From NCBI GenBank assembly GCA_040757115.1, contig JBFLYA010000005.1, forward strand, positions 1 through 43,919: 43,919 nucleotides of DNA. The letters are read 5' to 3'. Of the stretch, positions 38,504-43,640 are shown in pieces. Origin of the DNA: a bacterium (lineage in GTDB: Bacteria > UBA9089 > CG2-30-40-21 > SBAY01). Every line of letters begins with the position of its first letter. The stretch's first letter is position 1. A program made the position numbers and the translations under genes. The notes beneath the pieces are model-generated. The model ran no database searches, was not told the origin of the DNA, and worked only from the letters and a program-made list of their open reading frames with translations.

Positions 38504-41215
38504 ATGATAGAATTACCAAAAGAAAAATATACTGGTAAAATTGGTGAAGTCGTTATTGGCAAAGATTTAAAGGTTGGCGGCGAAAATACCTTTCCTTTTT
38601 ATACCTTCGAAGGGGATTTGCCAAATGAACCCAGAATCGCATTGGAAGTCTATGACATCGAGCCAAAAGACTGGCCACAGGCTTGCCTTGAGCCATTTAA
38701 AGAGGTGGTTTCTGACCCGGTTGCCTGGGCAAAAAGATGCGTAGAATACGGGGCGGATATGATTTGTGTTCAATTGATTGGCACTGACCCAACCGCTGAG
38801 AATAAATCCGCGGAAGAAGCCGCAGAACTTTGTAAAAAAATCGCCGAGGCAGTGAATATTCCTATCCTTGTCTGGGGAAGCGGGAAAATAGAAAAGGATG
38901 CAGAGGTATTGAAAAAGGTCGCTGATGCCACTCAAGGTAAAAATCTGGTTTTAGCCCCGGTTCAGGAAAATAATTATAAAACAATCGGTGCGGTCGCCAT
39001 TGGTTATAAAAATAAAATCTCTGCCTCTGCTCCGATGGATGTGAATTTATCCAAACAACTCAATATCCTTCTTTCAAATCTTGGTGTTGCGGATGACCAG
39101 ATTATCATTGACCCCACTGCCGCTTCACTCGGATATGGAATTGAATATGTCTATTCAATTATCGAGCGAGCTAAACAGGCCGCTCTTACCCAAAATGATG
39201 TAAAATTGCAAATGCCCATTGTGGTTAATCTTGGCAAAGAGGCATGGAAGGTAAAAGAAGTAAAAATACCCGAATCTTATGAGACAAAACTGGGCAATAT
39301 TGGAGATGCCAGAGAAAGAGGTATCCTCTGGGAAGCCATCTCGGCTATGGGTTTGCTAATCGCCGGGGCAGATATTATTATCATCCGGCATCCAGAGACT
39401 CTAAAATTAGTTCGCAAGATTACAAATAAATTATTGGGTAAGGAAATAGAAAAAACTGCTGTGGAAAAACCAAAAGAAGAAATTAAACCCACGCCAGAAA
39501 TACCAAAACCTGCACTCCCAACAGATGTGTCTGAAGTGATTTTAAAACTTACGCAAGAGATAGAAATCCTGAAGAAACGATTAGACGAACATAAACCAGC
39601 TACGGTTAAGATTATTATTGAAGGTCCGGCAGAGGTCATAATCGAAAAAGTGGGTGAAGAAAAACCAACCGTTCCCTTTGTTGAGATGCCTGTAAAAAGA
39701 AAATCAGTCATTTCTCTTAAAGAAGTGATTATCGATGGGGTAGTTGAAAAATTTAGCTATGACTACGAGGCACGAGTTGAGGGACAAAAGGTCTCCTGCA
39801 AATTTGGAACAACAGGTGTTTGTTGTCGGCTCTGTGCTATGGGACCCTGCCGAATCTCACCAAAAACCGATAAAGGCTTATGCGGGGCAACTCCAGATAC
39901 GATTGCGGCAAGAAATCTTATCCGAATGATTGCTGTTGGCGCCTCATTATTTACTGATTATACTCGTTCTGCAGTAAAAAGAGTAGAATCAGAAGAGATA
40001 AAAACTTTTGCAGAAGAATTTGGCAGACATTCCGGAGAACCAGGATTTCTTAAATCTGTCCCGAAAAAAATATACAATATCTGGCAAAAAATGGATATTC
40101 TTCCCCGCGGCATCGACCGTGAAATTGTTGAATTGATGCATCGAACCCATATGGGTGTTGACCAGGATTTTAATAATCTCTTGCAGTGTGGTTTGCGAGT
40201 TGCCCTCTCCTCTGGTCTGGGAAGTACATTTATCGGCTCACAGGTTAAAGAGGCATTATCCCCACCAAAACAATTATCCACATTTTCACTTAATTTTATA
40301 GAAAAAGATGCCTTCAATATTATTGTGCCTGTGGAGTCACTCGACGCCTTTTATCAAGCCGCTGAAGAAACTGAGATAAAAACCCTTGCCAGACAATTGG
40401 GCATTCCAAAGATAAAAATTATAAATTTAGAAGATGTCATCAGCCAGGAAATGGCAATGATGACGGGCGCGATTGATGTCATTGTGGCTGATGAAACAAC
40501 ACCAATTTCCGCATTACTCATTGCCTCCTGCTACCATACCCGCGCATTTACACTAACTTCAATAGATATTGCCGGCGTAAAGAAGATGGATAATGCCAGT
40601 TCTATCTTAAAAAAGGCATTAGCCAACATCCAGAATCGCGGGGCAATGAACATCACGGAAAATGAACTGGAAATTACCTCAAAACTCCCGACTAATACAG
40701 ACAAAATAAAGGGAATAGCGATTGTTTTAAACTGCAAAGGAGACTATACGGAAACGATTAAGGAGCTTATTACCAATGATATTCTCGTTTTGCATGCGGG
40801 ATGTGGGAGTTTGGAATTGGCTAAAAACGGTTTGTTCAATAAGTCTGCTGTTCAGTTTGCCGGGAAAAATCTTGCCGCCTTTTGTGAGCAAGAGAATATT
40901 TCACCGTGCATTTATGTAGGCACCTGTATGGACATATCAAAGGTGATAGTGTCAATGATGTCTTTGGAGAATATTTTAGCAATCATCCCGGAATGGATAG
41001 GTGAAAAGGCGATTGCCCAGGCATTTTTTATGCTTGGTTGTGGACTACCAGTTATTCTGGGCAAGGATTTCTGGGTAAGTGGGACTAAAGAATTAGTTAA
41101 TCTCCTTTACAAAGATAACCCACTTGGGACAAGATTTATTTATAAAGAAGATAACATAGCCCAGGAAACATTAAATCTTATAAACCAGGAAACATTAAAT
41201 CTTATAAAAATGTAA
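38504..41215 (+). CDS. CdhD/AcsD (CODH/ACS delta subunit) fused to a degenerate Ni-CO dehydrogenase-like domain
   Basis: A 903-residue fusion. Residues 1-310 are the corrinoid iron-sulfur protein small subunit of the acetyl-CoA synthase complex (FYTFEGDLPNEPRIALEVYD, GTDPTAENKS, DPTAASLGYG, IIRHPET). A Pro/Lys-rich linker with a short coiled coil follows (311-425). Residues 426-895 are CooS-like. The FeS cysteines are kept: Cys432, 440, 441, 444, 449, 460. At the Ni site three ligands are kept (Cys744, 767 and 808) and EWIGEKAIA is intact, but the His of HGHEP is replaced (NIIVPVESL), the GMCCT segment is deleted and the Cys of DVQC is missing, so CO oxidation is unlikely. It may wire the corrinoid protein to electrons or dock it onto CooS. 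The tail is a 24-bp tandem duplication. Confidence 0.85.
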   Translation: MIELPKEKYTGKIGEVVIGKDLKVGGENTFPFYTFEGDLPNEPRIALEVYDIEPKDWPQACLEPFKEVVSDPVAWAKRCVEYGADMICVQLIGTDPTAENKSAEEAAELCKKIAEAVNIPILVWGSGKIEKDAEVLKKVADATQGKNLVLAPVQENNYKTIGAVAIGYKNKISASAPMDVNLSKQLNILLSNLGVADDQIIIDPTAASLGYGIEYVYSIIERAKQAALTQNDVKLQMPIVVNLGKEAWKVKEVKIPESYETKLGNIGDARERGILWEAISAMGLLIAGADIIIIRHPETLKLVRKITNKLLGKEIEKTAVEKPKEEIKPTPEIPKPALPTDVSEVILKLTQEIEILKKRLDEHKPATVKIIIEGPAEVIIEKVGEEKPTVPFVEMPVKRKSVISLKEVIIDGVVEKFSYDYEARVEGQKVSCKFGTTGVCCRLCAMGPCRISPKTDKGLCGATPDTIAARNLIRMIAVGASLFTDYTRSAVKRVESEEIKTFAEEFGRHSGEPGFLKSVPKKIYNIWQKMDILPRGIDREIVELMHRTHMGVDQDFNNLLQCGLRVALSSGLGSTFIGSQVKEALSPPKQLSTFSLNFIEKDAFNIIVPVESLDAFYQAAEETEIKTLARQLGIPKIKIINLEDVISQEMAMMTGAIDVIVADETTPISALLIASCYHTRAFTLTSIDIAGVKKMDNASSILKKALANIQNRGAMNITENELEITSKLPTNTDKIKGIAIVLNCKGDYTETIKELITNDILVLHAGCGSLELAKNGLFNKSAVQFAGKNLAAFCEQENISPCIYVGTCMDISKVIVSMMSLENILAIIPEWIGEKAIAQAFFMLGCGLPVILGKDFWVSGTKELVNLLYKDNPLGTRFIYKEDNIAQETLNLINQETLNLIKM
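41161..41208 (+). repeat. 24-bp perfect tandem duplication at the 3' end of the CdhD-fusion gene
   Basis: CCAGGAAACATTAAATCTTA plus TAAA occurs twice in succession (41161-41184, 41185-41208) and encodes NQETLNLI twice. The stop codon lies within GTAAGCGTTCA (41212-41222), an orphan copy of the GTAAC-family terminus. Confidence 0.85.
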
Positions 41216-41547: not shown

Positions 41548-41672
41548 TGGGTTTGAGGGTTTAATGGTTCAGGTGAAATCAGGTTGAAGCCTGCGGCTAC
41601 CAGCCTTCCCGAGTCCCGAACCCCGAGTCCCGATTTTCAGGTAAACATTTAAACTGATTGGAGGTAAAAATA

Positions 41673-43640
41673 GTGGTTGTAACAACAGAAAAAGAAAAAA
41701 AAGTAGAAAAAAAGATTGATGAGTTAACCGTAGATAAAGCATCGATGGAAATGCTACAAAAAGCTAGAACGGCTAACATTGAGACCGTGTGGGATAGACA
41801 CGAGAAGATGAGTCCGAGGTGTAAATTTGGAGAAGGGGGAATATGTTGTCGTGAATGCGGAAAAGGTCCCTGTCGAATTACGCCTAAGGCACCACAGGGT
41901 GTTTGTGGTGCAGATGACGGTTTGATTGCCGCAAGAAATCTGGCTAAAATGACCGTGGGTGGCTCTGCCGCTCACTCAGACCACGGTCGCGCTGTTGCTG
42001 AAATATTCCTCGCCGCGGCTAAAGGGGAAGCCCCTGGCTACCAGATTAAAGATGAAATAAGACTTCATCAGGTCGCAAAATTATTTGGGATAAACACCGT
42101 AGAAAAGACAAATCAGGAAATTGCCATTGAAGTTGGCGAACTTGCCTTATCAGAATTTGGTAAGCAAGATGACGAATTAACATTCATTAAACGAGCTCCG
42201 GAAAAAAGACAGGAAATCTGGAAAAAACTGGGGATTGTCCCAGGAGGTATAGACCGCGAGGTAGTTTATCTAATGCATCAGATTCATACCGGCGTAAGTG
42301 ATGATGTTGAGGATATTTCTTTAGCCAATTTCAGGTGTAGTCTGGCAGATGGTTGGGGAGGGTCAATGATTGCGACTGAACTTCAAGATGTCCTTTTTGG
42401 TGCCCCTGTCCCCGTGAGGTCACGGGCCAACCTGGGTGTGCTTAAAGAAGATGAGGTAAATATCATTGTTCATGGACATGAACCGATATTATCTGAACTG
42501 GTCGTTGCCGTTTCTTCAGAGCCAGAAATGATTCAATTAGCAAAAGAGCAAGGAGCAAAAGGTATAAATATTGCAGGAATGTGTTGCACGGCAAATGAAA
42601 TCCTTATGCGACACGGCATTCTGCTTGCAGGTAATTTCTTACAACAAGAACTGGCAATTATGACTGGCGCGGTGGAGGCGATGATTGTGGATGTCCAATG
42701 TATTATGCAATCCCTGACTCCGGTTGCCTCCTGTTTTCATACCAAAATAATTACCACCTCAAAAAAGGCAAAAATTCCAGGTGCAATCCATATCGAGTTT
42801 GATGAACACGATGCCATAAATACCGCAAAAGAGATTGTTAAACGGGCTGTCTTGAATTTCAAAAATCGCAAAAAAGATGTCGTTATCCCAAAACAATCTA
42901 TGGAATTAATTGCCGGCTTTACCCATGAATATGTCAATTATATGCTTGGTGGAAGGTTTCGGGCTTCTTACCGCCCACTTAATGACAATGTTATCAATGG
43001 TCGGATAAAAGGTGTGGTTGGAATTGTGGGATGTAATAATCCAAAGGTGAAATATGATGCGGTGCATCTTGAAGTTACCAGAGAACTTATTGCCAATGAT
43101 ATTTTAGTTGTGCAGACAGGCTGTGCGGCGATAGCCTGTGCTAAGGAAGGATTATTATTACCAGAGGCCGCGGTGAAATATGCGGGTAAGGGATTAGCTG
43201 AGGTCTGTGAGGCAGTTGGTATGCCACCTGTGCTCCATTGTGGTTCCTGTGTGGATAATTCCCGCATCCTTATTGCCTGCACCGAAATGGTTCGTGAAGG
43301 TGGACTTGGGAATGATATTTCAGAATTACCTGTAGTTGGAATCGCACCAGAATGGATGTCCGAAAAGGCAATCGCCATTGGGCATTATGTTGTTGCCTCT
43401 GGAATTTTTACCATATTTGGCGTCACCTATCCTGTCATTGGCAGTGAATCAGCAAAAAAGATGGTTTTTGAGAAATATGGCGAGCTTGTCGATGGCAAAT
43501 TTGCTTTAGCCGTTACTCCATCAGAGATTGTCAATCTCACGATTGACCACATCAATAAAAAACGCAAGGCACTTGGAATTGATAAACCCAAAGAAAGAAT
43601 ATTGTATGATATGGAGATGAGACGAGAGCTTAAGTTTTAG
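41673..43640 (+). CDS. cooS: Ni-dependent carbon monoxide dehydrogenase catalytic subunit (CooS/AcsA)
   Basis: A 655-residue enzyme, close to the 620-675 of the family, reducing CO2 to CO for acetyl-CoA synthesis (or the reverse). D/B-cluster cysteines: C50, C58, C59, C62, C67, C78. His101/His104 lie in AAHSDHGR on the proton path. C-cluster ligands are all present: His267 in HGHEP, Cys304/305 in GMCCTANE, Cys343 in VDVQC, Cys454 in VGCNN, Cys484 in TGCAAIAC, Cys526 in CGSCVD, with Lys in EWMSEKAIA. Start GTG 41673 follows GGAGG by 8 bp; a TTG start five codons upstream would overlap that site. It follows the CdhD-fusion gene on the same strand after a repeat-filled gap. Confidence 0.95.
   Translation: MVVTTEKEKKVEKKIDELTVDKASMEMLQKARTANIETVWDRHEKMSPRCKFGEGGICCRECGKGPCRITPKAPQGVCGADDGLIAARNLAKMTVGGSAAHSDHGRAVAEIFLAAAKGEAPGYQIKDEIRLHQVAKLFGINTVEKTNQEIAIEVGELALSEFGKQDDELTFIKRAPEKRQEIWKKLGIVPGGIDREVVYLMHQIHTGVSDDVEDISLANFRCSLADGWGGSMIATELQDVLFGAPVPVRSRANLGVLKEDEVNIIVHGHEPILSELVVAVSSEPEMIQLAKEQGAKGINIAGMCCTANEILMRHGILLAGNFLQQELAIMTGAVEAMIVDVQCIMQSLTPVASCFHTKIITTSKKAKIPGAIHIEFDEHDAINTAKEIVKRAVLNFKNRKKDVVIPKQSMELIAGFTHEYVNYMLGGRFRASYRPLNDNVINGRIKGVVGIVGCNNPKVKYDAVHLEVTRELIANDILVVQTGCAAIACAKEGLLLPEAAVKYAGKGLAEVCEAVGMPPVLHCGSCVDNSRILIACTEMVREGGLGNDISELPVVGIAPEWMSEKAIAIGHYVVASGIFTIFGVTYPVIGSESAKKMVFEKYGELVDGKFALAVTPSEIVNLTIDHINKKRKALGIDKPKERILYDMEMRRELKF

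Follow-up and report, generated by a model that had tools for sequence, protein, structure and literature searches.

The gene near the end of the window (the whole 43.9-kb contig analysed here, G000:C5, from a 4.3-Mb metagenome-assembled genome) encodes the CFeSP small subunit CdhD/AcsD joined to a CODH paralogue which, as judged from alignments, is maintained by selection without a normal C-cluster or proton relay and with complete B- and D-cluster cysteines. We give roughly even credence to the reading that the linker behind CdhD leads into a CODH pseudo-subunit, which forms a pair with the neighbouring CooS, contributes the wiring of the B- and D-clusters, and anchors the corrinoid protein. 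A conserved dead CODH copy would probably hold the enzyme complex together.

The open reading frame (38504-41215, forward strand, 903 aa) has an ATG start and a ribosome-binding site (aaggagg), and its features are listed in Table 1. The CdhD part matched Pfam PF03599 (E 7.5e-44), NCBIfam delta-subunit models (residues 2-327), NF003376 (residues 2-311; 391.8 bits against a cut-off of 280), and the CFeSP small subunit 2h9a_B (residues 2-309; E 5e-91), where PF03599 and NF003376 identify a full-length TIM-barrel CdhD/AcsD domain. Residues 1-312 aligned end to end with known subunits (2h9a_B, 4djd_D, and 9fzy_E), but the fusion adds a C-terminal extension of ~590 residues ending in a CODH-fold domain, whereas descriptions of the bacterial CFeSP known so far show a protein on its own. 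The fusion holds the sole CdhD found in its genome. The CODH part matched Prismane (PF03063, E 4e-61, above the cut-off) and scored 218.5 bits with TIGR01702, the catalytic CODH model, below the cut-off of 478. An AlphaFold2 model, built on an alignment that included intact CODHs, showed a compact CODH fold whose best PDB matches were all Ni-CODHs (TM ~0.8 by query length), placing the domain, together with PF03063, in the Prismane/CODH superfamily. The matches to PF03599, 2h9a_B, and PF03063 bear out the earlier note on this DNA, which had read the first 310 residues as CdhD/AcsD and the remainder as CooS-like.

Table 1. Features of the fusion gene and the adjacent CooS gene (positions in the window; residue equivalents in CODH-II numbering)
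Feature	Position	Strand	Basis and remarks
Fusion gene, CdhD/AcsD - linker - pseudo-CODH	38504..41215	+	903 aa; 98%-identical G001 orthologue; dN/dS 0.21
CdhD/AcsD domain (CFeSP small subunit), residues 1-312	38504..39439	+	Pfam, NCBIfam, structure matches
Linker, residues 313-412, Pro/Glu/Lys-rich	39440..39739	+	dN/dS 0.34
Pseudo-CODH domain, residues 413-903	39740..41212	+	dN/dS 0.19; AlphaFold2 pLDDT 83, pTM 0.80
D/B-cluster cysteines C432, C440, C441, C444, C449, C460, type II D-cluster	39797..39883	+	All kept; alignment
FTDYTR for HSDHGR: acid/base His93 and next relay His gone	39950..39967	+	Alignment
Lost His261 ligand site, NIIV-PVES for NIIVHGHEP	40325..40330	+	Alignment
Thr666 replacing C-cluster Cys333; Cys295 segment deleted upstream (~residues 626-631)	40499..40501	+	Alignment
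Kept C-cluster cysteines C744, C767, C808 (= C446, C476, C526)	40733..40927	+	Alignment
Kept Lys835 (= K563)	41006..41008	+	Alignment; Arg in standalone relatives
Intact CooS, all cluster ligands; without Arg208/Asp214 (MHR...GVD) motif	41658..43640	+	Profiles, alignment

For the ligand inventory, the fused domain and its standalone relatives (see below) were each aligned separately to 21 intact CooS, using CODH-II numbering. The D/B-cluster cysteines C39, C47, C48, C51, C56, and C70 were kept in all six pseudo-CODHs, as expected of a Ni-CODH with a B-cluster and a type II D-cluster. The C-cluster was incomplete: equivalents of C446, C476, and C526 were kept in every copy, and His261, Cys295, and Cys333 were lost from every copy. 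In the fusion, NIIVPVES stands for NIIVHGHEP, the 16-residue segment around Cys295 (GMCCT) is deleted, and Cys333 is replaced by Thr (DVQC to DETT). The acid/base His93 and a neighbouring His were also lost (AHSDHGR to LFTDYTR), as was the conserved Asp of LADGWGG, so that of the acid/base pair the fusion keeps Lys563 only, which is Arg in the standalone forms, and the His is gone in all. The His and the Glu replacing Cys295 that serve as hybrid-cluster ligands in HCP were likewise missing, the region that would carry them being absent. Retention was graded: the region of the B- and D-clusters keeps 88% of its invariant columns, the region around the lost ligands ~40%. Neither separately aligned set contained a missing ligand at a shifted position; such ligands would have overturned the list given in the earlier note. 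That list (B/D cysteines, three C-cluster cysteines, and Lys kept; His, GMCCT, and DVQC cysteines gone) agrees with the alignment and was slightly incomplete, since the losses of the His93 relay and the LADGWGG Asp were not on it. With the monofunctional or ACS-associated Ni-CODH/CooS (clades E/F; 6t7j, 6ytt, and 1su6) the pseudo-CODH has in common its fold, the B/D-cluster motif near the N-terminus, the Lys, and three cysteines of the C-cluster. It differs from them in lacking His261, Cys295, Cys333, His93, and the LADG Asp and in having four internal deletions, and its identity to them is about 30%. With three of six C-cluster protein ligands gone, the domain likely binds no Ni, and a normal Ni-Fe-S C-cluster and CO oxidation are very unlikely, while an altered Fe-S cluster on the three kept cysteines is possible.

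The same fusion, 98% identical at the protein level, is present in G001, a second and separately assembled genome of the genus, and is thus not an assembly artefact. Between the two genomes, Nei-Gojobori dN/dS was lowest for CdhD (0.12), followed by the CODH-like part (0.19), CooS (0.22), and the linker (0.34), and the intergenic DNA flanking the fusion was only 70% identical. Values for the standalone relatives were 0.15-0.20, and stops or frameshifts were found in none of the six pseudo-CODH copies. The independent G001 copy and the dN/dS values led us to reject a pseudogene or an assembly error. The selected, non-catalytic CODH domain that the earlier note had proposed is therefore well supported by purifying selection and by a family of homologues that share the same losses, none of which is a random pseudogene remnant.

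Standalone relatives of the CODH-like domain (581-626 residues) were found in four genomes, three of them from a sister family within the order and the fourth from a more distant family of the phylum, and they have lost the same ligands as the fusion. Four deletions lie at corresponding places in the fused and standalone forms, one of them measuring exactly 38 residues in both when aligned independently. A mixture-model tree united the two forms with support of 95/93, at a point where both branches are long. The family profile found members in 6 of 19 genomes of the phylum and in none of 367 diverse other genomes at E 1e-85, all carriers being Candidatus Desantisbacteria, a phylum that is small and uncultured. 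A pattern-limited profile scan of GTDB species genomes returned four Desantisbacteria pseudo-CODHs as the only ones among the best 80 loci, which were otherwise intact CooS, and a single-protein scan of genome contigs for relatives found nothing. The open-access literature searched described no CdhD-CODH fusion or conserved non-catalytic CODH subunit. CODH groups with altered ligands were listed by Inoue et al. in 2019, where matches below 200 bits were left out (PMC6344411). In BLASTP comparisons with five intact CooS, which are not the queries to which the survey cut-off applied, the standalone forms reached 133-199 bits, and they may have been filtered out of that survey by score. Groups A-4, A-6, D-1, and G-1 of the survey are also CODH relatives with altered active-site ligands and incomplete C-clusters, but they keep the last four C-cluster cysteines, whereas the pseudo-CODH has also lost the second ligand cysteine and has deleted segments (PMC6344411). 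Two other unusual CODH-like proteins were seen. One, of ~390 residues, lies between cdhD and acsB at the cooS position in a genome of another phylum (L048:5367-6644, G053:C88); its cluster ligands are gone, and it was a one-off among seven genomes of that phylum. The other is a second CODH-like protein of the fusion-bearing genome itself (613 aa, L217:4745-6583, G000:C144), which has Met at the Cys526 position (GSMID versus GSCVD), keeps the other motifs, and has a distant relative at L136.

The gene after the fusion encodes a full-length CooS with 642 bits against the catalytic CODH model (cut-off 478) and every ligand present, as had been read from the window at the outset. Its predicted TTG start at 41658 sits within the ribosome-binding site, and the GTG at 41673 is probably the true start. 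Arg208 and Asp214 were each kept in 23 of 24 CooS of a sample drawn without motif selection; the six pseudo-CODHs all keep both residues, and all seven CooS of the carrier lineages have lost both, among them the CooS of G004 and G018, two genomes in which no pseudo-CODH was detected. The CooS of G002, a genome without a pseudo-CODH, groups with the CooS of the second family (tree support 99/99) and keeps the MHR...GVD motif, so the loss looks independent in two lineages. The conserved columns lost from CooS in these lineages overlapped (P = 0.0004). Over all columns, complementary loss, in which the pseudo-CODH keeps what CooS has lost, was not significant (hypergeometric 0.20-0.27), and the Arg208/Asp214 pair alone stands out; this reciprocal loss is an exploratory finding in two lineages. 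A loss of Met69 in the B-cluster loop at first appeared specific to carrier CooS (kept in 85 of 85 others), but that comparison set had mostly been fetched with a pattern containing Met69, and the residue was kept in only 20 of 24 unselected CooS; the candidate was rejected, and only the unselected set was relied upon.

In the genus with the fusion and in G005-G007, cooS is a near neighbour of the pseudo-CODH, and in the latter three genomes cdhD is too. Elsewhere in the phylum, G009 and G014 have CdhD fused to a CooS with its ligands kept (1006 aa), and G003 has it fused to a CdhA of archaeal type with seemingly complete motifs (1130 aa), where the fusion sits beside an archaeal-type CdhC and RACo was not detected. 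CdhD-CODH coupling thus recurs in the phylum and seems, from these gene structures, to have arisen several times. In all of these fusions CdhD is N-terminal to CODH as in the window, but the CdhD-CooS and CdhD-CdhA fusions keep the C-cluster ligands, unlike the window fusion. The G003 locus (L033:3691-10278, G003:C223) is a bacterial gene set in archaeal style, comprising CdhE, the archaeal-type CdhC, and the CdhD-CdhA fusion, with RACo undetected. At other loci, CdhD lies in open reading frames of 1125-1235 residues directly after cooS at L106, L115, L116, L120, and L122-L124, of which L106, the one scanned, is a full ACS-CdhD fusion, and at L093 CdhD is fused to the C-terminal part of ACS; the hosts are Opitutaceae, Acidobacteriaceae, Syntrophaceae, and other bacteria. 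An apparent intein, likely including a homing endonuclease, interrupts the AcsB of G014 (L210:1310-4876, G014:C55) at the Cys-Gly-Cys motif that belongs to the nickel site of the A-cluster (TS|C...N|CGCFECI).

A PDDEXK_3 (GxxExxY) domain above the Pfam cut-off ends CdhD in G005-G007, G017, and G018, and it also ends the pseudo-CODH wherever this is a separate gene; in G017, the two proteins carry two of the three GxxExxY domains of the genome. The nuclease motifs of these domains look degenerate. The sets on CdhD and on pseudo-CODH were considered as closest relatives of each other, which was rejected, as they resemble each other (27%) no more than they resemble canonical copies (24%). A structure model of the standalone pseudo-CODH was of poor quality across its GxxExxY domain. 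Elsewhere in the two genomes with the fusion, PDDEXK_3 matches are numerous (47 in G000 and 44 in G001, many of them fragments, versus 1-8 in related genomes) and dispersed ~290-bp repeats occur, which suggests an expansion of mobile-like elements.

As for the pathway partners, the dedicated activator RACo (PF14574) was present in all six carrier genomes, and the fusion as a substitute for a missing reductive activator was rejected on this ground. AcsB and AcsC were not found in G000; the sister genome has both on small contigs, and its acsE/acsC locus continues differently in G000. Both genomes are repeat-rich and fragmented, and the absence reflects either loss or a missing contig. No intact CooS was found in G017, an 87% complete MAG.

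In CODH structures, each monomer's B-cluster serves the C-cluster of its partner. Electrons reach and leave the C-cluster through B and D, and the D-cluster forms the bridge between the monomers (PMC11474084). A heterodimeric CODH would need, on its non-catalytic side, a subunit of just this kind, with B and D retained and C missing. In our preferred reading, the pseudo-CODH and the intact CooS next to it would form a dimer in which the pseudo-CODH completes the D-cluster bridge and relays electrons through its B-cluster to the C-cluster of CooS, and the CdhD arm would tether the corrinoid protein (CdhD-CdhE) via the linker beside CODH/ACS. In a published model of ACS-CoFeSP, the subunit of CdhD type lies against the N-terminal domain of ACS (PMC12289521). 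The result would be a bacterial counterpart of the ACDS complex (CdhABCDE), which in archaea is permanently assembled. The archaeal complex shares the stable association of CODH, ACS, and CFeSP proposed here but has a separate CdhD and catalytic CODH alpha subunits throughout (PMC11474084), whereas in the fusion CdhD is joined to a CODH that is non-catalytic. In the sister lineages, the GxxExxY domains on both CdhD and pseudo-CODH may make the same coupling. We infer the pairing, the electron relay, and the tethering from a dN/dS like that of CooS, the shared ligand losses and deletions, the tree, the graded retention, CooS adjacency, recurrent fusions, the paired PDDEXK_3 domains, the Arg208/Asp214 loss, and the retained fold; the undetected AcsB/AcsC of G000 and CooS of G017, the dissimilarity of the GxxExxY sets, the long branches, the exploratory nature of the Arg208/Asp214 result, and the intact CODHs in the alignment behind the fold model count against them. 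Docking of the corrinoid protein on CooS, as the earlier note had suggested, gains indirect support from CooS adjacency, recurrent CdhD-CODH fusions, the kept D-cluster cysteines, and the motif lost in CooS. A bolder version, which we put forward tentatively and at clearly less than even confidence, is that Desantisbacteria have an obligate heterodimeric CODH of CooS and a C-cluster-less, B/D-wired, corrinoid-anchoring pseudo-subunit, with CooS having adapted to it through the loss of a motif now found in the pseudo-subunit only.

Several other explanations share parts of this evidence. The fusion could form a homodimer whose B- and D-clusters are an internal redox relay re-reducing Co(II) of the corrinoid protein, which would account for the complete B/D cysteines and the covalent link to CdhD; however, RACo occurs in every carrier genome, which makes an electron-donor role in Co(II) reactivation, the other function proposed at the outset, less likely, and CooS adjacency and the reciprocal motif loss would be left unexplained, so that we consider this relay improbable, albeit the least so of the alternatives. 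Slightly less probable still is that the domain catalyses a different reaction at a remodelled cluster, either HCP-like or of the [4Fe-4S]/[3Fe-4S] type bound by the three cysteines. The three cysteines and the Lys are kept, and altered C-cluster ligands are known from relatives of Ni-CODH, among which group D-1 matches the residues of HCP (PMC6344411), but the His93 relay, the LADG Asp, His261, and the Cys295 and Cys333 segments are all gone, Lys has become Arg in the standalone forms, and HCP ligands are not restored.

A maturation scaffold, in which the three C-terminal cysteines would hold an Fe-S precursor and hand it to CooS for its C-cluster, is similarly unlikely, by a small step more so. 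The invariance of the C446, C476, and C526 equivalents in all six copies and the nearby CooS are in its favour. Nitrogenase offers a precedent for a pseudo-copy acting as a scaffold, NifEN serving NifDK. The CdhD link and the strict retention of the D-cluster would nevertheless go unexplained, and most CooS proteins need no scaffold. The domain might instead be what is left of a duplicated CooS, decaying but retained through its fusion to the essential CdhD. The large deletions and the long branch suggest this, but it is largely refuted by a dN/dS of ~0.2, six copies free of stops and frameshifts, equally selected standalone copies, and invariant cluster cysteines; we attach very little probability to it. 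Just as improbable is a purely structural linker that crosslinks CFeSP copies with neither a CooS partnership nor an electron role, since a mere linker would hardly account for the invariance of the B/D-cluster cysteines, even though CdhD does have other fusion partners (ACS in L093 and L106).

The CODH structures described in the literature consulted have two like catalytic subunits, as homodimers or as alpha2 in the archaeal complex. If the heterodimeric reading is true, a selected dead subunit carrying the corrinoid protein breaks the two-fold catalytic symmetry of CODH, and a natural half-active CODH would be available in which electron transfer through the B- and D-clusters and the directionality of the tunnel could be addressed one subunit at a time. 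CODH surveys that filter by score or by complete motifs may overlook conserved non-catalytic members of this kind. The acetyl-CoA pathway is an ancient route of CO2 fixation that is often placed at the root of carbon fixation, and the fusion, if it works as proposed, would show how this pathway can assemble into a channelled complex in bacteria.
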